DNA of 64,000 nt from Halichondria panicea (lineage: Eukaryota > Porifera > Demospongiae > Suberitida > Halichondriidae). Location of the stretch: the NCBI RefSeq assembly GCF_963675165.1, contig NC_087389.1:5616120-5680119 (forward strand), given 5' to 3'. Every line of letters begins with the position of its first letter. The stretch's first letter is position 1. This document shows, piece after piece, positions 1,809-60,056 of this stretch. Below the pieces are notes generated by a model that ran no database searches, was not told the origin of the DNA, and saw only the letters and a program-made list of their open reading frames with translations. Position numbers and translations under genes: made by a program.

Positions 1809-4365
1809 CTGTGTATTAAGATAAATACAACATAATCATGAACTATAGAATGAGTACCTTTAAGTGTTCATTGCACATGAGCATCAACTCCTCGCTCACA
1901 GGATTGCCATCCAGGTTACTGACATTGAACTCCTTCAGTCTAGGAAACAGCTCTGGTAGACACTCAGTGAGAGCTATCAATCCCTCATCATCAATGGAGT
2001 TGTTGTTGAGATACAACGTATTTAATTTCTTACATATCACATTAGCGGACTTGAGATGGTGGATAAGCATTATTATGTCAGCAGAGGTGAAAGAACAATC
2101 CCAGCAGTAGTGAAGACATTCCAGATATGGAAATGCTTGAAGAAACTTTGCCAGTAAGAGAGTTCCAGCAGTTCCACTGAAATTGGAACCAGACAAGTCC
2201 ATCACTGCTAAACTGTTTGGGTTGATATTCAGCATCTCACAGGTGACTGTGTATTGAGACTCCGAGTGAAATGAAGTGGTGAGATGGGTAGCTGATAAGA
2301 CAATCTTATTCAATCGTAACGGAATGTTCTCCACAACTGAACATAATCCAGGTAAACCAAGATTATTCTTAGAGAGGTGTAATTCTACCAGATCAGGACA
2401 ATGAGGGGCAATCGACTGTAAGAGGGTGGTCAGTAGAGCTCCATTAACGTCAGCATCATCAGTGAGGGTGTTGGCTAGCCACAGTAACATCAGGTTGATA
2501 AGAGCACCAGACTGTACAGCTGTATCTAATAATTGTATGCCAGACACTCCGAGAGGGTTGTGAGATAAGTCCAGTTGTGTGAGGCTCGTACAAGATGTGT
2601 GCATGAATGAAGACATGACGTAAGTGAAGTTGTTATGCTCCAACCAGAGTACATGTAAATCTGTAAAAGCAGCTGAGGCTCTCTTGAATAGATCAGCAAC
2701 ACCTTTGTCAGACAACTTAGTCTGCTGGAGGGATAATTGTGTGACTTGCAGTTTACCATTCGCATTGGAAAGTATGTCTGTTAGTTCCTTCAACGGTTTA
2801 TCATCGATTGCACAATGGGATATTCTGATAACCATATCATCACAATTTACAGCATGACGAAGAACATAGAAGCCAGCTACACAGTCAAAAGTGGTGCTGA
2901 AATTACCGTCTAATAAATGTATTCCATACAAATTACAAAATTTTGTGCAGAATCCCGAGTCTGAAGCTTCGAAAGCAGCATGACATAAAACCAACTTTTT
3001 AAGCTTTCCAGCCATCACAAATTGATCCATCAAACCATGATCCAAACTGACCACCTTATCGCTATGACTACCATTGTACTTACTAGCAAGACCAAACATA
3101 AATCTCCACACCATGTCAAACCGGACACTGTCAGCATTAGTCTCAACAACTTTCAGTTTCTCCTCATTGGGTAGAGTAGCAAGATGGAGGGCAGCCAAGA
3201 ACTCCTGGATGGTCAGGTGAGCAAAGTGGAAAGACAGGCCATGACCAACAGGTAGAAGTGATCGTGCAGACTGCAACAGACCAAAGCACAGCAAATTGTC
3301 ACCAACTTCGGGTAAGCGAGAGGACAAATCATCTTCTGAGAAAACCAGCTGATCTAATAATAAGCATTCGTAGGCAAACTCACAAATCAACCAAAATGTG
3401 TCTTGTAGATCATTCGGAATTTCATCAAAGCTATTGAGGCTAATCGGACAATCAGAGACTTTCTTTTTGACATTACGGAGGATAATGTTAAGAACAATTT
3501 GAGTGTACAGCTCAGTTAGCGTACGAGGAAGCTCTTGTTCTAAAGTGTGCCACAAGTTACAAACAATGGCGCAATTGAGGGGCACAGAACACACACTCTG
3601 AATGACTGGGTTGTTCTCAAGCTGCTCGATAAGAGAAGAAGCTTTCTCTGGGAATTGCTCAAACTCTGATTCTATGTACTGCTTGATATTCTCATCATTG
3701 AAACCAATTACCTCAACCAAACGATTTACAGAGGGAAGGTTGTGAAGAGGAGCTGAAGCAGAAGGTCGTGAGGTGAGGAGAACAGAAGCAAATGGAAGAA
3801 CACCACCAAAGAAAAGTTTGTAAAGAAAGGAAAATTTTGAACGATTTTCTTCACTGAGCTCGTCCCAGCCATCAGCTATGATGAGGACACCTTCTCCCTC
3901 TCTGTCCTCCAACTCTTTTATAACAGATGTGCGGATCTCCTCACTGGAGTGGAGAAGTTTGAACAGTTCAGCGAGACTTGTGGCAGACGATACTTCATGT
4001 TCTCTTAGCGGAAGCAACAGAACACAGTCGAATTGTGTCAGGATTTTGCCCTCTGCCCACCCTTCAGCAAGCATGGTACACAGTGTGGTTTTACCAATCC
4101 CAGCATTACCTTCAACGATGAGCTTCTTGACTGGTTTAATGCACGTTTTATTTTTGAACAGATTGCCATGGAGAATTGGAGTACGTTTGACCTTATCATC
4201 AGGTGCACCATGTTGTGGCAAGCCGGCTCTAAATCCTTCTCTCTTGTCAGCCTCCACTAACTGCAAGTTGATAAGCTTCTCTCCAGAAACTGGTGGCCAT
4301 TGCTCTTCACGATTTAAGAGTCTCTCTCTATACTTCCGGCGAATGCTGGTTATAAATTTATCCAT
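1..4365 (-). CDS. NACHT-LRR-Death receptor gene A (partial; continues past left edge)
   Basis: A predicted cytosolic NLR-type innate immune receptor. The head exon (1858-4365) encodes NACHT plus LRRs. Ten exons follow by splice consensus and frame: 1858-4365, 1734-1808, 1615-1680, 1311-1560, 1097-1138, 844-918, 730-798, 617-679, 394-512 and <1-123. The first three exons end in phase 0. The 1311-1560 exon switches to phase 1, and the short cassettes stay in phase 1 until the 394-512 exon returns to phase 0 and joins the Death-fold exon at the window edge. The tail exons are near-copies of those in the Roc/COR receptors at 27.2-33.1 and 48.4-54.2 kb, although the heads are unrelated. The cassette at 617-679 has lost its 3' splice AG (TG here, AG in the other copies) and is probably skipped without a frame change. 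The exon chain is inferred and untested by transcripts. Confidence 0.75.
1858..4365 (-). CDS. Head exon of gene A: NACHT NTPase plus leucine-rich repeats
   Basis: A single 836-codon exon starting at the ATG at 4365. Residues 86-94 are the Walker A motif GNAGIGKTT. Residues 160-170 (VLIIADGWDEL) are the Walker B/acidic NACHT signature, and LLTSRP near 196-201 matches the sensor-1 strand. A helical NACHT-associated stretch follows (about 220-450). From about residue 530 to the end there are LRRs with LxxLxLxxN-type spacing, for example LTQLDLSHNPLG and LVELHLSKNNLG. The N-terminus is a short leader of about 75 residues with no recognisable effector domain; effector Death folds are supplied by 3' exons, an order opposite to vertebrate NLRs. 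The frame ends at donor GTACTC; reading through gives a stop four codons later, so an unspliced form without Death domains is also possible. Confidence 0.9.
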
Positions 4366-6370
4366 GCTTTAACCGCTAATCCGATTCCGCAATTATTTAC
4401 CAAAGATTTTTATTTTACGTTTCACTAATTTCAAGAGAGAAATCTGGAGTGACGTGAGATGACTCAAGTTTTGTTTTATTAGCTAATGATGACAAGCAGC
4501 AACAACCTAGCCAGAGGATAGAGTCGAGATATGAGTGTACATGCATAACTAACTCAAATACCGTATTTATTGCGAGCATCAAACATATGCAAACTTTGCG
4601 AGCGTTGATCACTTCACAACAATAAAATCACAAAAACTAAAGCCTGTACTGGTAATGACGTGATCCTTGCCAGAGTGCAATAGTTAGCTAGATTGCAAAG
4701 GTGGTCAAATTTTCTGCTGAGCAGCCTGCATGCCTATAAATTCAGTGGCGTAGGCAGAGGGGGAATGACAGGGCTAGAGCCCTCCCCCCCCTTTTGTACT
4801 CCGTCAACTGCAACTCAGCTTGACTCACTGTGATATGTCTATCTATTCTGCAGCACTGCATGCATACATGTACATGCATGTAGTTACTATAGAATGATGT
4901 CATGTAATTGAAATGTGGGCAGGGCCATCTGATGCGCATGCTTACTGCTGAGGAGATGTGATGACCTACCGTGTTACTAGAATGTTTTGCGAGCATCAAA
5001 CATTTGCGAACTTAGTTAGATCGCAAAGGGTCAAATTTTCTGCTGATTTGGCTCATCACAAAGGTTTTTCACACGCAAAATATTCTAGTAATACGGTATG
5101 AAAGTCAGTGTCTATGCTCAACTAGACTTTGCAAGCACAAAAACGTGATAGGAATCTTAAAGCCAGGTCATAATTATTATGTTATGGGTTCCTTAATGCT
5201 TTCACAGTTTTTTATTGTGCTCACTTGCATGGAGTATATATAACAACCTCGATCTCTGATTATTCATGTGCCGGGAAACATAACATCGCAACAAGTCGTG
5301 GCCTAAATACCACAAGTTGCCAATGCAGCCGAATATATTTACCAACAAACAAATAGCTGTAGATTTTAGTAATTAATTAATGTCCAATAATTGTCTGCGG
5401 ACACTTGATTGCAAATCAGTTACTATATATTTACAGGTTTTGCTTATACCAACTTACTTATAATCTCAGTCAGCTTAGAGCAATCCTTGTGTATTTTGGG
5501 CTTGTTCAACAAAGAGGGGCGTTGCTTGTTATTCTAAAGCATGCAAAGGGAATTCCCCAAGATAGATAGGTGGGGCTGGCTTTTTATTCTCAGCGAGGTA
5601 CGTATACGGGTACAGTAGTGTGTTTGTGTGTGTGTAGACTGTTACAGCTGCTCAAGGATGAATCAAGTGCAAGTAAGAGTTTCTATAGGCTTCTAGTCAT
5701 GTTTACTTGGATCTTAATTCGTGGATTTGCAAAATAATGCTTTGTCATGTTATCGAGTTATGCCTAGTTTTGCTTACTTGGAATGCCATTGCAGCCTTTT
5801 CAGAAGAACAAGTAGCCAAACTTGTTACCGAATGTTACTACTCTACTTAGTAATTAGCTCTGCACTAGAACGCTAGCTATTGGTAGCTGCAAGAGTAGGA
5901 AGAGAGCTGCAAGGCTCTGCTGATGGTAATTCAGTAATTTTACACTTGAACTTTTGGCATCGATCGTTTTTAACAACAATCATGGTCGATCATTACCCAC
6001 TCTTTGAGTTTGCATGCAGCAAAATAATTTTTGCAAAAATGTTCAAAGCTATTAGTAGCTTTATGTTATGTAGCTTTGGCATCTCCACCGAGGCATCAGC
6101 ACCTGCGGTGCTTTCATTAATCTGATTATCACCCATGCACATCATCCGTCTCTTTTCACTGTCATCAGGCAAAAAAGAATGATTAGCCTCCTTTAGTCTC
6201 GCACCAGCCCCATTAAAAATTGGTATAGACCTAATATCAAATAGAAAACATCCGGGGATGGCTGCGCGAGACTAAGCCTCCTTCACCGGCCTTCAACAAT
6301 GACACTATCATTAGTAACATACAAATCCCGAGTATAAAAACAATGGAATAAAAATAATGAACAGTTTGTG
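4366..6370. other. Intergenic region upstream of gene A
   Basis: No supportable gene. It holds the putative promoter side of gene A, a MITE at 4969-5096, and a diverged piece of the same family near 4560-4620 (GCGAGCATCAAACAT). Around 5500-5560 is a short repeat (AAAGAGGGGCGTTGCTTGT) also found beside the start exons of the microexon genes near 38.9 and 60.1 kb. The segment about 5940-6120 is an older copy of sequence at about 19.26-19.52 kb (shared AACAACAATCATGGTC and a later CCGAGGCATCAGCA block). Confidence 0.5.
4969..5096. mobile_element. Short Tc1/mariner-type MITE
   Basis: A 128-bp element flanked by TA on both sides. The left end CCGTGTTACTAGAATGTTTT is the inverse of the right end (AAAATATTCTAGTAATACGG) with few mismatches. 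There is no coding capacity. A TA target duplication with CCGTAT-like tips fits the Tc1/mariner group. A related right end is seen at about 41880-41900 and 63055-63070 (AATATTCTAGCCATACGG). Confidence 0.7.
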
Positions 6371-30500: not shown

Positions 30501-33062
30501 TACACAAATATAAAAACTGCAAATATTTACGTATAGTGCTACATAACTACCGGAGTATTGCAGCTGATGTCTCTTTCCTTCAGTGTTCACATCTGAGGAG
30601 GCTTCACATGTAACAAAGGAAAACAAAGATAAACTCCTAAATAGTATATAGTTGCAATTTACCAGAAGGTAACAGATGTTCAGTATCAGTAATTTAGTAA
30701 GTCCTAAAGTGATGTATATGCCATGTACTTACCAGATTGTGGCTGCTGATCACTCTTTCTCTCAGTACAAGTACCTCCCGCGTACGTAGCAGACAATGGT
30801 TTTCCTAATTATGAGTAAATAAGTTAACTTTTAATTATACAAAAAACGACTGTACTCACCAGAACCTTCGCTATTGTCCAGCCAGATTCTATGTTCATCA
30901 CTGAGCTCTCCCCACACACGTGTCTGAAGGGAGCACTTCCAAAACTTACAGCCACTCCGTTCAATCACATCAGCAAGATGCAATTTGCCAGTGCTCTTCT
31001 TGCATGGGCAAAAGATGGCTGTCTTGGGTGTGTCGTTGTTGTAATGCAACACTGCACAGGACAATTTAATGCTGTGCAAAATTTCGTTTCGAATCATAGG
31101 GCATACTTCATTGCGAAGAGAAACAGGGATGTCGATATACACTTCCATATATGAGAAGGAGTCGATCAGAGTCACAGTACACGGGAGATCGGAGATTTCG
31201 TACTGGATACAATTTTTAGCAAAAATGCTTGTTTCGCCTGAAGGGAGCAAAACTTTCCAGCCCACCCTCTTGATCACGTCCACAACTAGACAGCAAAAAA
31301 CTCCAGAGCGAATACACCCACTACGAAAGTAGATAGCAAGGGGCGCTATTGTGAAGGAGGAACGAATTTTATCTAGCTCAGCAGGTGGGATCGATGTGAG
31401 TAGAGATGGCATGAAGAACTCGGCTTGGTGGATAGTGGACTCCACTAGTGCAATGGGAGCAATCACGAGAAGCTTTTTCATGATCAACAGCATATCTTCT
31501 GGAGAAAAGATGCCTTCAACATAATGCTTCTCGAAGAATTGTAGGAACTCTACAGTGACTATGCCTTGATCTCGAAATCTCTTCCACATGGCCTCGGTCA
31601 TTCCAGGGCTTAGCGTAGAGCGTGATTTGATTTCAGCATTCCTCAGGGAGATGGCGTGCTGTGAGAGCTCGGTGATCTTGTCTAGTGGAATCTGGGCATC
31701 CACAAACACTGTGTTGGGGAGAATGGAGGGATAGTAGTGCGCTATGCACACGTTGTCAAAGAAGACCAGAGCAGCTTCAAGATCTTGAAGCGCGTAACGA
31801 AATCGAGTGGCTAATCGGAGACATTCTTGCTTGCTTAGTACACCTCGCTCGAGAGTGGCAGATAAACTCTGGAGAAGTGAATCCAAGAAGGACCACCAGA
31901 TGGGCATTTTGACTTGTAGCGGAATAGAACGCTCAACGGCAATTCTAATCCTATTGGCAGTGGCCAGTGAATCATCATCTCGGCTGATCGTGTTGAGACC
32001 AAAAATCAGATTGTTCAACGCTAGATCGTTGTACACCAAAAGCTTCTTGATATCGGGTGGCAGCATGTTGAGAATCTCTTGATTCCTCTTGGTAAGTGTA
32101 TCCAAGCTCTTGAGCTGATCTAAAAACGTGCCCACAAAGATCATCTTTGGCTTCTTGTCTTGTGAGGTATGGGACTCAATGGATCGAATGAGACTCTGAA
32201 GTGTCTCCCCGAGGGTCATGTGAGATGCATGAGGACTACCAACAAGCTGCCCATCCTTGTAGTACTCGTCAGAAGGGAAACTGGAGAGTTCGTCAATTAA
32301 ACGCAGGACTACCAAAGCCACCGAAATGTGCTTGATGAAGAGAGGGCTGATGTCGTGGAATTGGGGTTGTCCGCCGCAGTCGGTAACGTACACCCAGTTG
32401 GAATCAAACAGTTCTCCTTCTTGCTGGTCACTGCTCAACAGTTGGTCAGTTCCCTGTGAGGCTGGCTTCAGCTCTTCTGCCACACCACTCACTACACTCG
32501 CTATCACTTCATCGATGGCTTCGTCCAACATTCTTGCAGAGCCAGAAAGTTCATCGGAATCGTTCGTCGATGGGCTGGATTTGGAACCAGATTTTGTCTT
32601 GGTTGTGGTCATCCTCTTGGGAATCCTTAATGCCGTGATCATCTTTTTCAAGCTCTTGGCAATTCTTGATGCCGTGGATCGATCAGTACTTTTTTCAACT
32701 AAACGATTGGTGCTTTCTTGTGATAACTTGGCAATGATTTGAGCTAGTAGATTGCGCAGCTTTGACTGAGACATCTCTTCCCAGCCTCTTCCAGTTGTCT
32801 TGAATTTTGCGTTGGACACAGGTCGAATGCGTATTGGCTTTTCCATACAAGGAGTGCTGTCACGCTGTAGTGGAGGGGGCTGGTCAGTTAGCAGGTGCTT
32901 GAGGTTGGTCTTCCCTGTTCCCGCAGGTCCAAACACGAGCATGTTGACAATGTTGACCAAGACGTGTCCGTGCTTCATCCCCTCATCAAACAACCGCTTC
33001 GATTCTAAACAGGATGTGTGAATGTAACTAACTATATGCAATACTTCAGAGCTAGGTGACAA
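27184..33062 (-). CDS. Roc/COR-like GTPase-Death receptor gene B
   Basis: A predicted intracellular signalling receptor. Exons: 30860-33062 (head), 30733-30804, 30551-30592, 30293-30367, 30170-30238, 30057-30119, 29674-29792, 29140-29401 (Death domain 1), 28493-28564, 28339-28407 and 27184-27533 (Death domain 2, stop TAA). Every junction has GT/AG and the frame is conserved throughout; cassettes are phase 1-1. The product would be about 1050 residues. The head binds nucleotide; the Death folds presumably recruit adaptors or caspases (inference from family). No lesions were found. It lies upstream of eIF4E3 on the same strand with a gap of about 0.35 kb. A truncated cassette (DHDQHITS) near 28610-28650 has lost its 5' half. 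Confidence 0.8.
27945..28118. mobile_element. Foldback MITE in a tail intron of gene B
   Basis: Starts CAGGGTGTCATACAGGATTT and ends CCCCTGTATGACACCCTG, inverted. It is 174 bp and absent from the matching intron of unit C. A further piece of the family (CAGGGCTTCATAGAGGGG) begins near 27599. Confidence 0.8.
28676..29012. mobile_element. B-specific MITE in a tail intron
   Basis: A 337-bp insertion relative to unit C (about 50410-50440). The ends are inverted: GGCCATACAAAGTCATTTGT at the left matches the complement of the right end (ACCAAATTGACTTTGCATGG) with a few mismatches. Non-coding. Confidence 0.7.
29140..29401 (-). CDS. Death domain 1 exon, gene B
   Basis: 262 nt, phase 0 in and phase 1 out. 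It encodes a six-helix Death-type fold: MTDLQHVYEKL, then WFNLGLALGLSHFVL, CLREMLAKLL and TWSLLSDGLKRPTVDLI. The buried Trp and LGLALGL helix are typical of Death domains. The C copy (50560-50824) has one extra codon. The preceding exon 29674-29792 is a separate half-fold. Confidence 0.8.
30860..33062 (-). CDS. Head exon of gene B: Roc-like GTPase and COR-like module
   Basis: A 734-codon exon. Residues 45-53, GPAGTGKTN, are the P-loop. DCGGQPQF at 228-235 is the G3/switch II motif typical of Roc domains, and FVGTFLDQL at 309-317 fits the G4 region. A Ser/Thr/Lys-rich insertion (about 112-215) separates the P-loop from G3 and differs strongly between B and C. After the GTPase, WWSFLDSLLQSL (about 390) marks a COR-like start, followed by winged-helix-type sequence. 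The last ~180 residues contain a conserved FCPCKKS motif and WGELSDEHRIWLDNSEGSG, where the exon ends in phase 1. ATG at 33062 is the first in-frame Met and is shared with copy C. Confidence 0.85.
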
Positions 33063-35543: not shown

Positions 35544-38500
35544 TCACCAAATATTCCAGTTATATGGTACTATATGCGAACGAAACAGAAACTTTAATTT
35601 GGAAAGTTGCTACAGGTACGAGTGATTGCAACTATGAGCATCAACACTCACTGTACTATAAAGTTCCTTGCTCCCCTCACCTTCCTTTCTCCGTCTCTCT
35701 GGCCGTCCTCGTATCTCAGCAATCCAATTCTCATCGTCATGTATGAACCTCACATGCCATTGTATCTCAAAGACACACTTCTTGATCTTCCCCTCCACCT
35801 CCTCCAGCTCTCCCTGCAGTTGTCTCCGGTCCTGGTCAGTGATGTCACCAGACAGTCTCTGTTGGAGGGCAGCTCTTCTCTGGGGGGAGTAAAGAATATA
35901 TATACGACTGAATGAACATGCAGCTGATACAAATCACTACTGCACGTTATAAGGTTAACAAATTGCGTACAATCCACATAACAAAATATAAAGGTCAGCA
36001 ACCACTAACCTATTCAATCAGTAAAAGTGGACTTATAAAACATACACAAAGGTAGACAAAAAGCAACCATTCATCATACAATGGACAGTACATGTACACA
36101 CATTGTCGTTCTGCTAGACTACGTGTACCACTCTAACCACGAGAGTAGTAAGTGCAACTGTCAACACTCACCGTCTTTTGACTCTTCAGTTTACTCTCCT
36201 CCTTAGCCTTCCCCTGGACAAGGTGAACAAGACAAGAGTGGGTTAGACTGTGTGTTTGTGGTCACACATTATGAGTTGTCTATAGGTGTAGCTACGAGGG
36301 TCAGGTAAGGATATGAGACTATTACAAACTGAATGCACATGAGGTGTAGGGTATGTTTGCCAACATTGTTTGACTCACTCTCTATCGTTCCAGATATTCA
36401 GTAACCATGGAAATGTATGGAGAGAAAAGAATATAATCACAAACCTGTACACTATGATGTCAATAATTTATATTACACGGCATGTACTCATACGTACAAC
36501 TCAAACATTACTGACACAAGTACAGTCACAAGTCAGTGCAGTGTCCCGCTCACCTTCTGTTTAGTCCAATGAGACACCAGTGTAAGACACACATGGAAAC
36601 AGAGAGAGGGGGATGATGGTAGGAGCAGTGAGTGCATTCATACATGTCTGTATACTGTAACTTACCCTCTGTTGTTCCAGTAATCATTAGCAGTAGTCAC
36701 ATTAACAAGTAGTAGGACAAGGACATGTAGAGAAATGAACATGTTCAAATACACGAATGCATTCACACATGTATACATCAATTATTGCAAGTACACGTCT
36801 GTACAGTATGAAACTATCAAGAGCAGTACCAATCCTAAATAAAGCCACACAATTTCTGCCTTCATGCAGTAGTACATGTACACAAGTCAGTCTAGTTTGC
36901 CATTAAATATATAATGCTCAGCTAGCACACACTGACAATAATAAACTCACAGCCTGTTGTTGAGTAACAGTCCACAGAGGGTACATGTGAGGAGAGAGGG
37001 ATATGAACACACTGGTAGTAACTCAGTACACACTGGCTAGTACACACACAGGTACTTAGTACTAGCAATGGCAGATAATGGAAGGGTCAGTGGATGGGTC
37101 AGTGGAAGAGACGGTGAACGGTACAACAAGCATCTTACATGTACAACTTTGATACGTACGATTTTGTTTGTCGTACAATACAACACATGCACTCCATGAG
37201 ACACACACACAATCACAACATACCTCAATGTCACTCTGAGACACATCAAATGGTACATGTGAGGGAGAGATTTAATCTTAACACACATACAAGACATCAG
37301 ATCAGTTGAACGCTGGTGTGTATGGGACTGACTACACGTAGCAACAAGTGGAATACATCTAGACCTGGCACATTAAAGCTCTTGGGAACAATCTTGAGAA
37401 ACCAAGAACTTAATTAGTTGGGGAATTTACATGTACACAATGTACACAATGCATGTACATGTGTGGTATTTCTAAATTGTGCGTAAAAATAATGGGACTA
37501 CGAATAGTACAAGGTTACTGTTCGGAAATTTACGTACATGCAGATTTAGGAAAGTTAGTCAGTACAAACATTTTGGGCAAGTTTGGAGCATGTGTAATGT
37601 GCCCTGGCCTACACCTGGGGTAACCACAAACTGGGAGGCTGATATCGTCCTCGTAGCCGTGGTCTACCCTATACGAGGGAGAGGGTCAGCTCTAGAGGAC
37701 AAGGGACACACTATAGTCATGCTAGGTAACCAGTACATCCGTACACATTGCAGCTGAACCATTTTAGTGTGTGGACATTGAGTACCCATAAGAAGCTCAC
37801 CTCCTACAGTAGTCCAAATCAGTGTGAGGTCCAACATAGGAATGAGTGTGTGCATGGGAAGAGACAAACACGATAATGTACCAACTTAGATGCATATTCT
37901 ATGAACCAATAAAAGTATTAAAAGTACAACCTAATAAGTTTTGTAGTTGGCAATATGCAAATTAAGAGGCAAAGACGTTTTACGATTTCCTACAATTAGT
38001 GTAGGAGTTCCTATAGTAACCATTAAAATTAGTGTACACGTGCAAACACAACTTACAAGCTGTTGATCCAGAGAGGGAGAGTCCACAGGGCAAACACGTG
38101 GGAAGATAGTAAATGAATGATTACGAGGTTGAATGTGATCATACTAAATATTTCCCTATATAACACTATGGCACTGCACACACACAAGAGTAATAATGGG
38201 GAAGTAGAAACATCACAGAATATGCAACAGACACTAAATACTCTGACAACACACACCAACTTACAAACTGTTGTTTCAGAGGGTCAGTCAAAGGTGAGGT
38301 GGAGATGCATGAAATGGAAGAAAGAGAACATTAGTGCAGTGATACAGTAGACTGGTGATTGCATGACACAGGGGAGGGGAAACAATTGTGGACAGCCAAA
38401 CATGCAGACTGAAACACTTGATTAACCATGCATACTTTCAGGGAATACTATACGAGTAGATCTACTGGTCTCAATTAAGGAATAGTATCACATTCAGTTA

Positions 38501-38885
38501 TCCGTATGTGCTCTTCTTTACACTGTCTACCTCCTAACAACAAGTGCTCAGAGCACAAGCATGTCAGCTTGGTAGAATGTGATTGCACACAACGTACCTC
38601 AATCCATTCCTGTTGTCCATCCAGAGAGAGTGGTACATGTGGAGAGAACAACAACATGAGATAAAACACGTCACACTGACAGGGTAGAGTGTAGGCACTA
38701 TACTGTGATGAATGAATGATGCCAAGTGTGTTTATGGGTGGTCAACAAGTACATCTAGGCACTAGGAGAATGCACTGATCATTGAGTATCTATCTATCAT
38801 GTGAATATCATACCCTATCCCCAGGAGTGAGTCCCTCCATCAACTGTGGGGAACTAGCAGCATTCAGTGTTGTAGATTCAGCCAT
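35544..38885 (-). CDS. Microexon coiled-coil gene, copy B
   Basis: A previously unrecognised gene assembled from splice sites. Exons: 38814-38885 (start, MAESTTLNAASSPQLMEG...), 38598-38609 (EWIE), 38265-38267 (F), 38057-38059 (L), 37801-37803 (E), 37224-37235 (SDIE), 36951-36953 (A), 36666-36668 (R), 36554-36556 (K), 36172-36213 (14 codons, GKAKEESKLKSQKT), 35652-35879 (76 codons, LQGELEEVEGEIKK coiled coil) and 35544-35609 (22 codons ending NWNIW stop). Every exon is a multiple of 3 nt in phase 0, flanked by AG and GTRNG, and every one has a counterpart in unit C. The product would be about 149 residues, charged and mostly helical, without a signal peptide. Function unknown. The smallest exons are a prediction only; an alternative is that they are decoy splice pairs. 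Confidence 0.5.
36554..38609 (-). other. Array of 3-nt and 12-nt microexons in homologous intron units, copy B
   Basis: Eight microexons (six of 3 nt, two of 12 nt). Several share an acceptor context ending CAACAG and a donor GTAAGT or GTGAG. An upstream TGTACC-CTCT-TGGA pattern repeats before several of them, indicating that the intron-exon unit itself was tandemly duplicated. Codons from 5' to 3' of the transcript: GAATGGATTGAG, TTT, CTT, GAG, AGTGACATTGAG, GCT, AGG, AAG. Confidence 0.5.
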
Positions 38886-51700: not shown

Positions 51701-54205
51701 CAGACACAGCAGTTACATTCATGTAGTACGTCTGTCAATTAACATGCTCACTCAAACAAGGCTGTTGATCACTCATTCCAGATCCAGTGCTACTAACAAC
51801 ATTGGCCAGAGTCCCACATTGATTGACTGAAAACAACAAGAATTACTATAAATTGACATCATGCGCATTGAACCCTGAACCCTCATACATATACAGGTAT
51901 ATTATACACGTACGCTGTATGTGCTTACTAGAGTATTGCTGCTGATCACTCTTTCTCTCAGTCTTCCTACAAGTACCTGTAGCAGACAATGGTTTTCCTA
52001 GTAGAAGGAAACAAAAGGTAAATTTCAATTACAACAATCTCTGTACTCACCAGAACCTTCGCTATTGTCCAGCCAGATTCTATGTTGGTCACTGAGCTCT
52101 CCCCACTCACGTGCATGAAGGGAGCACATCCAATAGCCATCCACACTCACATCGGCAACGTGCAACTTGTTTCCACTCTTCTTACACGGGCAAAAGATCG
52201 CTGCTTTAGGTGTATCATTGTTGTAATTCAAAACAACACAAGCAGCTTTGATGGATTCCATTAGTTGAGAACAAACCATAGGACACAACTCTTTGCGTAA
52301 TGGAGGGGGGGCTTCGACATACACTTCCATACGGGAGAAGGAATCAAGCAATGAGATGACACAAGGACGATTCGGAATTCGAAATTGAATACAATTCTTA
52401 GCGAAAAGTATTGGACCACTTGAAGGGAGAACAGCTTCCCAACCAAGCCTCCGCATTACATCAACAACCGTACAGCAGAAGACACCTGAACGAATACACC
52501 CACTAGGGAAGTGAATAGCGAGGGGGACAGATGAGGAACGGACTTTGTCCAGTTCAGCAATGGGAGCAGATTTGAGTAGAGATGGCATGAAGAACTCAGC
52601 TTGATGGGTAGTGGACTCCACTAGTGGAATGGGAGCAATCACGAGAAGCTCTTTCATGATCAACAGCATATCTTCTGGAGAAAAGATACCTTCAACGTAA
52701 TGCTTCTCAAAGAATCGTAGGAACTTTAAATTGATTATGCCTTCGTCTCGAAATCTCTTCCATTCGGCCTCGATCCCTACTGAGCTTAGAGTAGAGCGTG
52801 ATTTGGCTTCAGCATTCCTCAGGGAGATGGCGTGCTGTGAGAGCTCGGTGATCTTGTCTAGTGGAATCTGGGCATCCACAAACACTGTGTTGGGGAGAAT
52901 GGAGGGATAGTAGTGCGCTATACACACCTCGTCAAAGAAGAACAGAGCAGCTTCAAGATCTTGGAGCGCATAACGAAATCGAGTGGCTAATCGGAGACAT
53001 TCTTGCTTGCTTAGTACACCTCGCTCGAGAGTGGCAGATAAACTCTGGAGAAGTGAATCCAAGAAGGACCACCAGATGGGCATTTTGACTTGTAGCGGAA
53101 TAGAACGCTCAACAGTAATTCTAATCCTATCGGCAGTGGCCAGTGAATCATCATCTCGGCTGATCGTGTTGAGACCAAAAATCAGATTCTTCAACCCAAG
53201 ATCTTCGTACACCAATAGCTTCTTGATATCGGGTGGCAGCATGTCGAGAATCTCTTGATTCCTCTTGATAAGGGTATCCAAGCTCTTGAGCTGATCTAAG
53301 AATGTGCCCACAAAGATCATCTTTGGCTTCTTGTCTTGTGAGGTATGGGACTCAATGGATCGAATGAGACTCTGAAGTGTCTCCCCGAGGGTCATGTGAG
53401 ATGCATGAGGACTACCAACAAGCTGCCCATCCTTGTAGTACTCGTCAGAAGGGAAACTGGAGAGTTCGTCAATCAAACGCAGGACTACCAACGCCACCGA
53501 AATGTGTTTGATGAAGAGAGGGCTGATGTCGTGGAATTGGGGTTGTCCGCCACAGTCGGTAACGTACACCCAGTTGGAATCAAACAGTTCTCCTTCTTGC
53601 TGGTCACTGCTCGACAGTTGGTCAGTTCCCTGTGTGGCTGGCTTCAGCTCTTCTGCAACACCACTCACTACACTCGCTATCACTTCATCAATGGCTTCGT
53701 CCAACATTCTTGCAGAGCCAGAAAGTGCATCGGAATCGTTGCTCGATGGAGTCGATTTGGAACCTGAAATTTGCTCAACGGAACCAGAAACTAGCTCGGT
53801 TGTGGTCATCTTCTTCAAGCTCTCGGCAACCCTTGATGCAGTGGATGGATCGGCGTTTTCTTTTGGTAGCTTGGCAATGATTTGAGCTAGTAGATTGCGC
53901 AGCTTTGACTGAGACATCTCTTCCCAGCCTCTTCCAGTTGACCTGAATTTTGCGTTGGACACGGGTCGAATGCGTACTGGCTTTTCCATACAAGGAGTGC
54001 TGTCACGCTGTAGTGGAGGGGGCTTGTTAGTTAGCAGGTGCTTGAGGTTGGTCTTCCCTGTTCCCGCCGGTCCAAACACGAGCATGTTGACAATGTTGAC
54101 CAAGACGTGTCCGTGCTTCATCCCCTCATCAAACAACCGCTTCGATTCTAAACAGGATGTGTGAATGTAACTAACTATATGCAATACTTCACAGCTAGGT
54201 GACAA
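48426..54205 (-). CDS. Roc/COR-like GTPase-Death receptor gene C
   Basis: Paralogue of gene B without lesions. Exons: 52051-54205 (head), 51929-51997, 51752-51826, 51621-51689, 51514-51570, 51095-51213, 50560-50824 (Death domain 1), 50337-50402, 50093-50167, 49646-49698, 49339-49594, 49146-49241 and 48426-48772 (Death domain 2, stop). All joints keep frame. Compared with B it lacks the 42-nt cassette and has five different exons between the Death domains. These include a truncated Death-domain-2 start (49646-49698, 53 nt, phase 1 to 0) joined to a copy of gene A's linker (49339-49594, with a run of seven Asp). The exon at 50093 lost its usual acceptor (AA for AG), but an AG six bases upstream keeps frame. 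The role is inferred as in gene B. Confidence 0.8.
48858..48912. repeat. Triplicated 16-bp unit
   Basis: AGCTGTACAGAACACT three times in a row, upstream of the last exon of gene C and absent from unit B. Confidence 0.95.
49836..50074. mobile_element. MITE of the CCGTATATAGC family, C-specific
   Basis: Tips TACTGTATAGCGCGAAATTT and ...AAATTTCGCGCTATATATAC-GGTA are inverted. The interior has CACGAAAAT motifs in both orientations. Inserted in a tail intron of gene C. Confidence 0.7.
50560..50824 (-). CDS. Death domain 1 exon, gene C
   Basis: 265 nt, phase 0 to 1. INDLQHVYEKLHESASPHWF and LGLALGLTHPDLTNI match the B copy except for a cluster of changes after LGL. TWSLLSDALRRPTVDLI closes the fold. 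Confidence 0.8.
52051..54205 (-). CDS. Head exon of gene C: Roc-like GTPase and COR-like module
   Basis: 718 codons. It has the same P-loop (GPAGTGKTN), G3 (DCGGQPQF) and G4 (FVGTFLDQL) motifs as gene B and almost the same sequence through the GTPase and COR-like core. Two regions differ strongly: the Ser/Thr/Lys-rich insertion before G3, and the last ~180 residues. For example, B has KNCIQYEISDLPCTVTLIDS where C has KNCIQFRIPNRPCVISLLDS. Between these differences FCPCKKS and the terminal RIWLDNSEGSG are kept. Confidence 0.85.
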
Positions 54206-56696
54206 GATGGACTACCATAGAAACTGTATTATTAGCGCAAGCGCTCATGCATGGGGTCAATAGCAGAGCTCTATATACTTATATTCGAGACTGCGCCTAT
54301 AATGCAGTCATATTCTAGCCCCACCCAGTAACCGGATGTCTCTGTGACGAGTGATGTTTCGAGGCAAGCTAACTCGATCTATATCATAATTATAATTATA
54401 TGTTACAGTTTATTTTACACTTCATTTTAAATTTATATCGTTTATAAAAACAATCATATTGACCAAGAACTTGGAACAAAAGGACGTCTCACATTCTCTC
54501 AGCATGATCAGACAAGGTAACAGCATGACCAGAGAGTCCTTCCAGATGGATATCACCAGCTATAATTATAGCTACCATGCACTGTACAAGCTAGCTCATA
54601 GGAATCAATTCAAAATGTTCACTAATAATTATTATCTTTCGCATGTCATGTAAACATAGCGGGTAAGGGGTAAAAATTCGTTGAACTTGAACACGGTGAT
54701 GTTCGTGAGTCAAAATGTTCATTGCCTGCACTGCATTGCATGCGTTCCAGTAAACCACACCTAGGTCAGCTTGCCCACGAAAATAATAACAAATATTTTA
54801 ATTACCCCACAAAAATCCGCTATACGGTAGTCTGTCAATTGGCTTGGCATAATCAACCCTACAGGTTAGGTAGTCCATTGGTTTGGATATAGCCTCAACA
54901 AAACAAGTTATTAGTGTTTCAGATTTTGATGTTAAAGTCCTCCACACGCCTCAGGGTTAATTGTATTGACATTCTGCGCAACCAAGACAGTGTGAAAACA
55001 CAATACAATAACAGTACTTGTGATCACACATACATGTTGTATTGTAAACAAAATTACATCAAATCATACGTAACTTGGTGCGTGTACAATAGAGTACATT
55101 GAGTGTGGAAGGCAACTAGGTAGCTCTAGTTATGTAATAGAAAAGCATTTAATGGAAGGACCGGCATCGATCTGCTACAAACAATGGATACAGCAGCTGT
55201 ACGTACATAAACCTTTAAAGCTTGCTAAGTGTGTGACCCACCAATGACAGGGAATGTGGCTGATCATTACAGGAATGTGCTATGAATGAATTAACATGAT
55301 GATGTCACTAAGTACACAGTACAACGTTACCAACCCAATCACTCAATCACAGTGACTGTACATGTATGTGCGCATATATTGATGCAATGTCTGATAAACA
55401 GTATCCATAATTAATTATAACACATGTACCACAGTGTGTGGAATATAGTCAAAGGAACAATGCTCTAGCTTGATCAAACCAGGACCACATGGAAGGGAGT
55501 AAGCAACTAATACACACCATATAAATACATGTCAGGTATGTCAAACACACTTGTAGTAATGTAATTTGTGTGTGTTGACCAAGGCTAGGCGGGCTAATCA
55601 TAGATTAAGTCTACGCGTGTGCTTGTGCAATTAATCCATGATTTGAGTGGTTGCATACAAACCTTATTAAGGTAATGAAAGAGGTGAAGCTAACAGTTTA
55701 ATAAGAGCGGGATTACCAACATTGAAACATTGAGACAGCGAACAACAGCTGTACGTACACACTACATGTATACAGTAGAGGACAAATTAAAGTTTATGAT
55801 GCGTTTGTTAACCCGAGGCACTCCACGGGCTATAGTAGTCAATCTGTGTGTCTGTGGATATGAGTCTATACTCACCCGGATGTGATAGCACTGTATTGGT
55901 ACCATGGATAGCCTCAACACAACAAGGTTTTATAATATTAAAGGTTTAAGCTTTGTTGTCGAGCAAAAGCTAAAAAGCATGAACTGCACTGCAAGTTGGC
56001 CTAGATATACACGTGACTTTGACTCGAGGCTGTAAACGTATAGACCTCAAACTAACACCGAGGGTTTGCACTTCAGTTTGATTTTGTTGCACAAACAAAA
56101 TAATTGTTTTTGTGCATGTGCGCTCAAGCTTGCAATATATAGGTACTGAGAGCAAAAACATTTTAACTTTCCTCGTAAATAATTGGAAAATGCAGAGCGG
56201 GATTACAAACATTGTACAATGGATTTTGTACGTACAGTCTACTAATAACTATAGTCACGGTAGAGGACAAATTAACGTTTCTGTTCTGTTTGCATATAAT
56301 TATAGTCTCTGCATTTGTGCTGATTCTGTTGCACAAGCCAGTGGGAAATGCAGTAGCTAGGAAGGTACTGAGAGCGAGCGGAAAACATTTGAACGCCCAA
56401 GCACAGGAAGCCACACCCACTTTCCTGCGCATGACAGGTGTGGTCACTAAACGTACAAAAGCTCAATCTGAATACCTAGTGCTGCTCACTGCTTATGAAT
56501 AGCTCCACTTTAGCTTATACTATAAAGCCTAGAGGGGTGCTCATCTCATAGCTGGATAAGCAAAACAATTGTTTTTGTGCATGTGCAATCAAGCTTGCAA
56601 TATCAAACCACTAATCATATTCATAGTAATTAAGGCTGATAATGTAAACACAGTAATCACTAAACCATGCACAGGTGGTACAGTCAAATTCCTCAG
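54206..56696. other. Intergenic region between receptor C and microexon gene C
   Basis: Counterpart of 33063-35543, including the MITE remnant at about 54655-54828 and the internal 0.5-kb repeats. No gene is supported. Confidence 0.5.
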
Positions 56697-59600
56697 TCAC
56701 CAAATATTCCAGTTATATGGTACTATATGCGAACGAAACAGAAACTTTAATTTGGCAAGTTGCTACAGGTACGAGTGATTGCAACTATGAGCATCAACAC
56801 TCACTGTACTATAAAGTTCCTTGCTCCCCTCACCTTCCTTTCTCTGTCTCTCTCCTCGTATCTCAGCAATACTATTCTCCTCGTCATGTATCCACCCCTC
56901 ATACATTTGTATCAGTGAGACACACTTCTTGATCTCCCCCTCCACCTCCTCCAGCTCTCCCTGCAGTTGTCTCCGGTCCTGGTCAGTGATGTCACCAGAC
57001 AGTCTCTGTTGGAGGGCAGCTCTTCTCTGGGGGGAGTAAAGAATATATATACGACTGAATGAACATTCCACCAAATAGAACATGCAGCTGATACAAATCA
57101 CTACTGCACGTTATAAGGTTAACAAATTGCGTACAATCCACATAACAAAATATAAAGGTCAGCAACCACTAACCTATTCAATCAGTAAAAGTGGACTTAT
57201 AAAACATACACAAAGGTAGACAAAAAGCAACCATTCATCATACAATGGACAGTACATGTACACACATTGTCGTTCTGCTAGACTACGTGTACCACTCTTA
57301 CCACGAGAGTAGTAAGTGCAACTGTCAACACTCACCGTCTCGTGACTCTTCAGTTCACTCTCACACCTAGCCTTCGTCTGGACAAGGTGAACAAGACAAG
57401 AGTGGGTTAGACTGTGTGTTTGTGGTCACACATTATGAGTTGTCTATAGGTGTAGCTACGAGGGTCAGGTAAGGATATGAGACTATTACAAACTGAATGC
57501 ACATGAGGTGTACGGTATGTTTGCTAACATTGTTTGACTCACTTCCTATTGTTCGAGATATTCAGTAACCATGGAAATGTAGGGAGAGAAAAGAATATAA
57601 TCACAAACCTGTACACTATGATGTCAATAATTTATATTACACGGCATGTTCTCATACGTACAACTCAAACATTACTGACACAAGTACAGTCACAAGTCAG
57701 TGCAGTGTCCCGCTCACCTTCTGTTTAGTCCAATGAGACACCAGCGTAAGACACACATGGAAACAGAGAGAGGGGGATGATGGTAGGAGCAGTAAGTGCA
57801 TTCATACATGTCTGTATACTGTAACTTACATCCTGTTGTTCCAGTAATCATTAGCAGTAGTCACATTAACAAGCAATAGGACACGGACATGTAGAGAAAT
57901 GAACATGTTCAAATACACGAATGCATTCACACATGTATACATCAATTATTGCAAGTACACGTCTGTACAGCATGAAACTATCAAGAGCAGTACCAATCCT
58001 AAATAAAGCCACACAATTTCTGCCTTCATGCAGTAGTACATGTACACAAGTCAGTCTACTTTTCCATTAAATATACAATGCTCAACTAGCGCATACTGAC
58101 AATAATAAACTCACAGCCTGTTGTTGAGTAACAGTCCACAGAGGGTACATGTGAGGAGAGAGGGGTATGAACACACTGGTAGTAAGTCAGTACACACTGG
58201 CTAGTACATACACAGGTACTTAGTACTAGCAATGGCAGATAATGGAAGGGTCAGTGGGTGGGTCAGTGGAAGGGACGGTAAACGGTACAACAAGCATCTT
58301 ACATGTGCAACTTTGATACGTACGATTTTGTTTGTCGTACAATACAACACATGCACTTCATGAGACACACACACAATCACAACATACCTCAATGAGATCC
58401 TGAGACACATCAAATGGTACATGTGAGGGAGAGATTTAATCTTAACACACATACAAGACATCAGATCAGTTGAACGCTGGTGTGTATGGGATTGACTACA
58501 CATAGCAACAAGTGGAATACATCTAGACCTGGCACATTAAAGCTCTTGGGAACAATCTTGAGAAACCAAGAACTTAATTAGTTGGGGAATTTACATGTAC
58601 AAAATGTACACAATGCATGTACATGTGTGGTGTTTCTAAATTATGCGTAAAAATAATGGGACTACGAATAGTACAAGGTTACTGTGCGGAAATTTACGTA
58701 CATGCAGATTTAGGAAAGTTAGTCAGTACAAACATTTTGGGCAAGTTTGGAGCATGTGTAATGTGCCCTGGCCTACACCTGGGGTAACCACAAACTGGGA
58801 GGCTGATATCGTCCTCGTAGCCGTGGTCTACCCTATATGAGGGAGAGGGTCAGCTCTAGAGGACAAGGGACACACTAGTGATGCTAGGTAACCAGTACAT
58901 CCGTACACATTGCAGCTGAACCATTTTAGTGTGTGGACATTGAGTACCCATAAGAAGCTCACCTCCTACAGTAGTCCAAATCAGTGTGAGGTCCAACATA
59001 GGAATGAGTGTGTGCATGGGAAGAGACAAACACGATAATGTACCAACTTAGATGCATATTCTATGAACCAATAAAAGTATTAAAAGTACAACATAATAAG
59101 TTTTGTAGTTGGCAATATGCAAATTGAGAGATAAAGACATTTTACGATTTCCTACAATTAGTGTAGGAGTTCCTATAGTAACCATTAAAATAAATGTACA
59201 CGTGCAAACACAACTTACACGCTGTTGATCCAGAGAGGGAGAGTCCACAGGGCAAACACGTGGGAAGATAGTAAATGAATGATTACGAGGTTGAATGTGA
59301 TCATACTAAATATTTCCCTATAATTATAACACTATGGCACTGCACACACACAAGAGTAATAATGGGGAAGTAGAAACATCACAGAATATGCAACAGACAC
59401 TAAATACTCTGACAACACACACCAACTTACATTCTGTTGTTTCAGAGGGTCAGTCAAAGGTGAGGTGGAGATGCATGAAATGGAAGGAAGAGAAATTAGT
59501 GCAGTGATAGAGTACACTAGTGATTGCATGACACAGGGGAGGGGAAACAATTGTGGACAGCCAAACATGCAGACTGAAACACTTGATTAACCATGCATAC

Positions 59601-60056
59601 TTTCAGGTACTACTATACGACTAGATCTACTGGTCTCAATTAAGGAATAGTATCACATTCAGTTATCCGTATGTGCTCTTCTTTACACTGTCTACCTCCT
59701 AACAACAAGTGCTCAGAGCACAAGCATGTCAGCTTGGTAGAATGTGATTGCACACAACGTACCTTAATCCATTGCTGTTGTCCATTCAGAGAGAGTGGTA
59801 CATGTGGAGAGAACAACAACATGAGATAAAACACGTTACACTGACAGGGTAGAGTGTAGGCACTATACTGTGATGAATGAATGATGCCAAGTGTGTTTAT
59901 GGGTGGTCAACAAGTACATCTAGGCACTAGGAGAATGCACTGATCATTGAGTATCTATCTATCATGTGAATATCATACCCTATAGCTATCATTCTCAGTG
60001 AGCCCCTCCATCAACTGTGGGGAACTAGCAGCATTCAGTGTTGTAGATTCAGCCAT
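56697..60056 (-). CDS. Microexon coiled-coil gene, copy C
   Basis: Exons: 59979-60056 (26 codons, MAESTTLNAASSPQLMEG... ending NDSYR), 59763-59774 (QWIK), 59431-59433 (N), 59219-59221 (R), 58963-58965 (E), 58388-58399 (DLIE), 58115-58117 (A), 57830-57832 (D), 57718-57720 (K), 57336-57377 (TKARCESELKSHET), 56805-57026 (74 codons) and 56697-56762 (ending NWNIW stop). All lie in phase 0, and the 6-nt size differences from copy B in the first and eleventh exons keep frame. The coiled-coil start (LQGELEEVEGEIKK) is identical to B; the next ~27 residues differ. Flanking introns are nearly identical to B. Function unknown; no transcript evidence. Confidence 0.5.

Follow-up and report, generated by a model that had tools for sequence, protein, structure and literature searches.

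The window analyzed here, a stretch of 64,000 nucleotides of the Halichondria panicea genome (C13:5616120-5680119 of the 131-Mb assembly), carries two gene copies, A and B, of a ROCO-type (Roc-COR GTPase) family, both on the minus strand. The family comprises at least 40 copies on the contigs C10 and C13; each of three gene pieces used as queries gave 40 scored matches, out of 47, 43, and 42 candidates, respectively, all of which are located on these two contigs. By their appearance, the genes belong to an immune-like signaling family, for which a receptor function would be conceivable. The start of the gene appears to be split into a chain of very short exons, several of which consist of a single codon, and many of these codons are hypervariable among copies while the introns around them are almost identical.

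At the start of copy A, twelve exons (E1-E12) were placed, and each internal one is preceded by AG and followed by GT (Table 1). The nine microexons E2-E10, which lie between E1 and E11, have lengths of 12, 3, 3, 3, 12, 3, 3, 3, and 3 nucleotides (nt), are all in phase 0 (symmetrical), and follow each other at a spacing of about 110-565 bp. An initial annotation of the window had described eight of them, all of which were found in place on the minus strand between AG and GT; it missed the ninth (E10), which shows the same pattern, as do variable portions of E1, E11, and E12.

Table 1. Exons and open frames of the two gene copies in the window (positions of the window; in splice sequences, the slash marks the exon boundary)
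Feature	Position	Strand	Description
Copy A E1	38814..38885	-	72 nt, MAESTTLNAASSPQLMEGLTPGDR; last codons variable
Copy A E2	38598..38609	-	12 nt (EWIE); codons 1 and 2 variable, followed by I and E/K
Copy A E3	38265..38267	-	single-codon exon, variable (TTT)
Copy A E4	38057..38059	-	single-codon exon, variable (CTT)
Copy A E5	37801..37803	-	single-codon exon, near invariant (GAG/AAG)
Copy A E6	37224..37235	-	12 nt (SDIE); codons 1 and 2 variable, followed by I and E/K
Copy A E7	36951..36953	-	single-codon exon, variable (GCT)
Copy A E8	36666..36668	-	single-codon exon, variable (AGG)
Copy A E9	36554..36556	-	single-codon exon, invariant (AAG)
Copy A E10	36379..36381	-	ninth microexon (AGA)
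Copy A E11	36172..36213	-	42 nt, carries the heptads on
Copy A E12	35681..35879	-	199 nt, turn and second helix (predicted); codons 38-52 hypervariable
Copy A Roc-COR exon	30860..33004	-	open frame; ends from splice consensus (TTTAG/AATCG, TCTG/GTGAG) and joints in RefSeq relatives
Copy B E1	59979..60056	-	
Copy B E2	59763..59774	-	QWIK
Copy B E3	59431..59433	-	AAT
Copy B E4	59219..59221	-	CGT
Copy B E5	58963..58965	-	GAG
Copy B E6	58388..58399	-	DLIE
Copy B E7	58115..58117	-	GCT
Copy B E8	57830..57832	-	GAT
Copy B E9	57718..57720	-	AAG
Copy B E10	57543..57545	-	GAA
Copy B E11	57336..57377	-	
Copy B E12	56834..57026	-	193 nt
Copy B open frame holding Roc-COR exon	52028..54211	-	spans the Roc-COR exon; frame limits, not exon ends

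Because the A/B pair alone could mislead, 27 copies (L009-L035) were fetched, and L036 was added later as a relative. The counts rest on 25 copies, 15 from C13 and 10 from C10, after exclusion of L024 (diverged) and L025 (partial). L020 has lost the stretch from E8 to E12. Furthermore, the intron separating E5 from E6 is shorter by about 420 bp in five C13 copies (L009, L016, L019, L020, and L022), where this part is missing.

Divergence of codons and introns

Between copies A and B, 14 of the 45 bases of the nine microexons differ (AGA/GAA at E10 included), compared to 51 of 2844 aligned bases (1.8%) in the introns from E1 to E12 (Fisher P 1.9e-13). For the eight microexons described initially, a recount gave the same 12 differences in 42 bases, all of which replace amino acids when the codons of both copies are read, and the 145-bp intron stretch reported to contain two differences has 2 in 146 bases. 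The initial observation is real, and it is stronger than had been claimed. Intron diversity is 0.020 in C13 and 0.033 in C10, while bases 1 and 2 of the variable microexon codons mostly reach 0.5-0.8 within a cluster, which is near saturation; lower values are found for E10 (0.44-0.53) and, in C10, for base 1 of E4 (0.36). Averaged over E3, E4, E7, E8, and E10 in C13, diversity is 0.63/0.64/0.28 within the triplet and about 0.02 outside, with all offsets within 30 bases at or below 0.11.

The conclusion that exons diverge and introns do not holds for the variable codons but not for exons in general. E5 reads GAG in 21 and AAG in 4 copies, E9 reads AAG in all 24 copies that have it, and both E2 and E6 have ATT as their third codon in every one of the 25 copies. 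The Roc-COR exon is under ordinary purifying selection, with a ratio of non-synonymous to synonymous substitutions (dN/dS) of 0.3-0.4 in C13 (10 of 15 copies, those for which the sequence sufficed) and in C10 (10 of 10 copies). The excess therefore tracks protein positions and not exon status, and since E5 and E7 have the same size in the same genes, a length of 3 nt is not enough to render a codon variable. The glutamate or lysine positions, i.e., the fourth codons of E2 and E6 as well as E5, change only between GAG and AAG in the 25 copies, possibly as a charge code on an otherwise constant helix face.

Very strong diversifying selection, as proposed initially, is supported by the kind of changes observed. 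At the nine variable codons of E2-E10, only 12 of 2385 differing copy pairs (summed by hand) are synonymous, and there are no stop codons in 1065 cells covering all 44 variable codons. A genome-wide search with the E2/E6 pattern and open codons gave 77 matches (control 0), whose 154 codons include no stop and form 69 distinct hexamers. The E7 pattern gave 39 matches with 14 codons (control 0) and the E5 pattern 41 matches with GAG in 37 and AAG in 4 (control 0), the codons of both being counted by hand.

The general motif CAACAG-NNN-GTAAGTT has 130 matches in the genome (control 7). Among the matches listed, those outside both clusters are located at C1:3852274 and 11162432, C11:2158803 and 2245851, and C12:6369781 and 6387078; they possibly represent other microexon genes or chance.

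Heptad register and exon status

When the microexons are joined, a helix with the heptad pattern v v I E/K v v E/K (v, variable) is predicted, in which each heptad is distributed over exons of 12-3-3-3 nt, and this arrangement occurs twice. The third heptad is encoded by E10 and the long E11, so that the register runs from the microexons into an ordinary exon, and the helical period of the variable sites continues into the long, unsplit E11 and E12. If residues with a diversity above 0.6, a cut-off picked after the values had been seen, are scored as 1 and joined in order, the pattern is 1100110 1100110 1100110; successive heptads agree at 14 of 14 positions, which was matched by 2 of 20000 shuffles. 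The agreement falls to 9-11 if any one of the seven 3-nt exons is omitted. With regard to a duplication of the 12-3-3-3 module, the in-register pairing had a splice-flank similarity score of 59, the third best of 24 pairings.

The splice signals are strongly conserved in relatives. Compared to copy A, L036 differs at 2 of 104 positions adjoining E3-E10 and at 272 of 1337 positions in the other aligned intron sequence, with gaps counted, and L024 differs at 1 of 117 positions adjoining E2-E10 and at 386 of 2415 positions in the other intron sequence. In L036, E3-E11 are in place, the variable sites carry other codons, and the codons of E5 and E9 are unchanged. Codon behavior (no stops, amino acid changes), splice-signal conservation, and heptad register agree with each other and thereby support the reading of the triplets as exons, all of which are probably spliced in, as judged from the genomic sequence.

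Several results speak against this reading. In L036, E2 was not found, and E6 encodes E-I-L-Q without the pair of isoleucine and glutamate or lysine. The microexon chain is present in none of the 19 RefSeq proteins read. One of them, P0017 (an isoform of RefSeq LOC135342889), appears from its N-terminus to read through the intron into E7 and then to continue at the E11 acceptor without E8-E10; this omission of three in-frame 3-nt exons seems to be either skipping or an annotation error. A search of protein databases with the spliced N-terminus gave 5 matches of 112 candidates with a coverage of only 56-66%. Apart from these results, an intronless retrocopy, which would serve as proof of splicing, was not present among 48 matches listed, with 40 of 91 candidates scored, so that its absence is not shown; in this search, 40 E12 matches begin at query base 159 (39 matches) or 161 (one match), and the junction of E11 and E12 lies after base 159.

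In a rival reading, the triplets are not exons at all but conserved AG-NNN-GT motifs with another role, and the protein begins at E11 or E12. None of the RefSeq proteins read does in fact start before E7 or the intron preceding it, and the search with the spliced N-terminus brought up no microexon-bearing transcript. Against it stand the lack of stops, the heptad register, and the strong purifying selection on the splice signals where introns have diverged by 16-20%. In addition, many exons of this size are missed by annotation pipelines in plants (PMC8831610). We consider this alternative very improbable. An alignment or assembly artefact, which could be suspected because near-identical tandem copies are hard to assemble, is even less credible and can practically be set aside: the flanks adjoining the exons are the same at nearly every base across 25 copies from two contigs, and any errors would need to respect codons, amino acid changes, and heptads.

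Probable exchange between copies and origin of the diversity

Among informative pairs of intron sites separated by more than 20 bp, the four-gamete test fails for 0.53-0.86 in C13, and in C10 it fails for 0.92 at 150-300 bp. These failures support exchange between copies and, with it, the homogenization of introns considered in the initial annotation. As the microexons are spaced at distances at which such failures are common, their codons are nearly unlinked. Copy pairs sharing codons at two different microexons number 109, with 98 expected, and for all 20 codons tested the excess of sharing is small between exons (786 vs. 724 expected) and larger within exons (216 vs. 173). Between the clusters, there are 24 fixed differences in introns and none in exons. 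Linkage and fixed differences together show the pattern that exchange within clusters and selection for variety would give.

The exon codon TGG at E4 is paired with the unusual donor gttagt in four of four cases (L019, L026, L030, and L033) on two contigs; L019, which carries this combination, otherwise has flanks of its own cluster type. Long-tract cassette transfer was considered as well and rejected, and a transfer of codon cassettes is not shown either, because the flanks of copies with the same codon are no more alike than those of other copies.

This last result also weighs against the combination of selection and exchange, as do several others. With the clusters pooled, failures of the four-gamete test drop to 0.22-0.44 of the pairs with a separation above 20 bp, and r2 in C10 climbs again, to 0.39, at 1200-3300 bp. 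The zero fixed exon differences are a weak contrast, as only about 3 are expected in 358 exon bases. The counted dN/dS of the nine variable codons is only 4.4 in C13 and 3.0 in C10, a count that is rough owing to multi-hit codons; for the tail of E1, in-frame indels make this ratio unreliable. The values for the nine codons are modest because synonymous counts at variable codons (0.24 and 0.34) are far above the intron level. This may indicate that the codon alleles are older than the surrounding introns, or it may result from path counting in codons with multiple changes.

The age of the alleles is central to the view that long-lived, balanced codon alleles dominate and that the introns look young through conversion, so that little new mutation is needed. 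The high synonymous counts, the occurrence of the TGG-gttagt combination in both clusters together with the cluster-typical flanks of L019, and the absence of fixed exon differences would all fit. Old alleles should nevertheless show T/C differences in NNY codons unless they are constrained, and such differences are absent at E2.2, E3, E4, E6.1, and E8 in both clusters, although common at E7; the same-codon copies do not share flanks either. As the dominant process, balanced alleles appear rather unlikely, though they are one extreme of the favored explanation and overlap with it. Another rival explanation is a targeted mutator, such as a cytidine deaminase or a retroelement rewriting the first two codon positions, with selection acting only as a filter. 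Diversity-generating retroelements, which are defined by a reverse transcriptase with a template and a variable repeat, rewrite the first two codon positions. The codons of E3, E4, E6.1, and E6.2 are indeed mostly NNT or NNC, with bases 1 and 2 varying and the third nearly fixed, and positions 1 and 2 are near saturation beside introns with 2-3% diversity. On the other hand, E5 and E9 are of equal size and nearly constant, the flanks have no mutational halo, all four bases are present, third positions change where the amino acid changes (ATG, TGG, AGG), and it is the protein heptad that is followed across the microexon junctions into E11. A mutator is therefore improbable. More generally, a process targeting exons, the other possibility raised initially, is unlikely and was rejected, as E5, E9, and the ATT codons are constant and the helical period runs into the unsplit E11 and the hypervariable, unsplit E12. 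The initial interpretation as a whole is thus partly supported.

The best explanation, which we regard as likely when taken as a whole, is diversifying selection on an exposed helix face combined with short-range exchange between copies. In this model, the locus would belong to a ROCO-type family repeated in tandem and would encode its helical N-terminal part, with the nine microexons and E11 forming an amphipathic helix. One face of the helix (I, E/K, E/K) would be kept nearly constant and the opposite face would be under very strong diversifying selection across paralogs, with a separate exon for each of five among the nine variable residues in E2-E10 and with exons of 12-3-3-3 nt for one heptad. 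Short exchanges, by gene conversion or unequal crossing-over, would keep introns alike within a cluster and would also let neighboring codons assort nearly freely, giving each copy its own combination. The variable tip of the predicted helical hairpin may bind something diverse, such as a microbial ligand or a partner protein, and the Roc-COR and Death domains would signal the outcome of binding. Both fast recent change and old maintained alleles are compatible with this explanation. A recognition code of one residue per exon, in which recombination of paralogs in long homologous introns reassorts single amino acids independently and in-frame skipping of 3-nt exons could add isoforms with a rotated variable helix face, can be proposed only tentatively.

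Regarding the signaling part, the combination that defines ROCO proteins, with COR following a Roc GTPase within a single chain, is present, and the Roc-COR fold has been shown for a relative. In sequence profiles, the Pfam cut-offs for Roc and COR-A are not reached by copy A (no hit) and copy B (Roc 12.8 bits of 27), and distant relatives also stay under the curated cut-offs (Roc 24.9 of 27, COR-A 31.9 of 35.3). No Pfam family was found for the two Roc frames at E 0.001, and among PDB sequences there was no hit with an E below 0.42. The Pfam cut-off for Death was reached in one of five proteins scanned (P0036, 23.7 bits of 22.6), while the copy A exon scored 14.9. The COR parts of copies A (30723-32588) and B (51919-53764) are only 87% identical, compared to about 95% in the flanking blocks, which suggests mosaic exchange with another subfamily; age comparisons with Roc-COR are confounded by these mosaic segments. 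Beside the ROCO copies, a long open frame at 1843-4368 of the window (minus strand) contains NACHT (E 4.8e-24) and leucine-rich repeats and represents an NLR-like gene.

Significance and comparison with known systems

If the favored explanation is correct, individual hypervariable residues and elements of the gene structure would correspond one to one, and this in a phylum that is among the earliest to branch off in the animals. The variable single-codon exons E3, E4, E7, E8, and E10 and the constant ones E5 and E9 of the same genes would then form a matched set with which the reason for such small exons could be tested naturally. The locus would also point to a large gene family with a candidate role in recognition in the sponge, the variable part of which is missing from the RefSeq models seen. 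H. panicea has been reported to express individual-specific sets of immune receptors, which is no more than suggestive (PMC8242945). No description of hypervariable single-codon exons was found in the literature searched, most subscription journals being outside its coverage.

Among the cases compared, the nearest one published is the LRR-ROCO family of brown algae, in which each leucine-rich repeat (LRR) of 23 residues is encoded by one 72-bp phase-2 exon, diversifying selection and exon shuffling occur, and a repertoire of immune receptors has been proposed (PMC11378527). The ROCO family, repeats on exons, and diversifying selection are common to both. However, the sponge family does not have one LRR per 72-bp phase-2 exon; its heptad of seven residues takes four phase-0 exons, down to one residue per exon, and its copies are clustered, whereas the algal ones are mostly dispersed. 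Concerted evolution together with positive selection on few surface codons is shared with the NWD genes of Podospora (het-d, het-e) and their WD repeats, which combine NACHT with a beta-propeller instead of Roc-COR with a helix and for which the part of the source consulted mentions no microexons (PMC1805685). Highly similar introns and strongly different exon parts among paralogs are also known from the three-finger toxin genes of snakes (ASSET), but what switches there are stretches of 4-53 bp within exons of the ordinary kind, and the corresponding excerpt describes neither single-codon exons nor a heptad register (PMC2474615). Similar to the sponge genes, the micro-exon genes of schistosomes have many short exons, mostly multiples of three, separated by long introns and hard to annotate, and their symmetry is found in E2-E10 as well; in the portion available, they are described as encoding secreted proteins, with exons of mostly 15 bp and a lower limit of 3 or 6 bp (PMC10526429). 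Finally, the 1-nt and other tiny microexons of plants illustrate that splicing includes exons only a few nucleotides long and that annotations frequently get them wrong; they are described as evolutionarily conserved, which is the opposite of the variable microexons of the sponge (PMC8831610).
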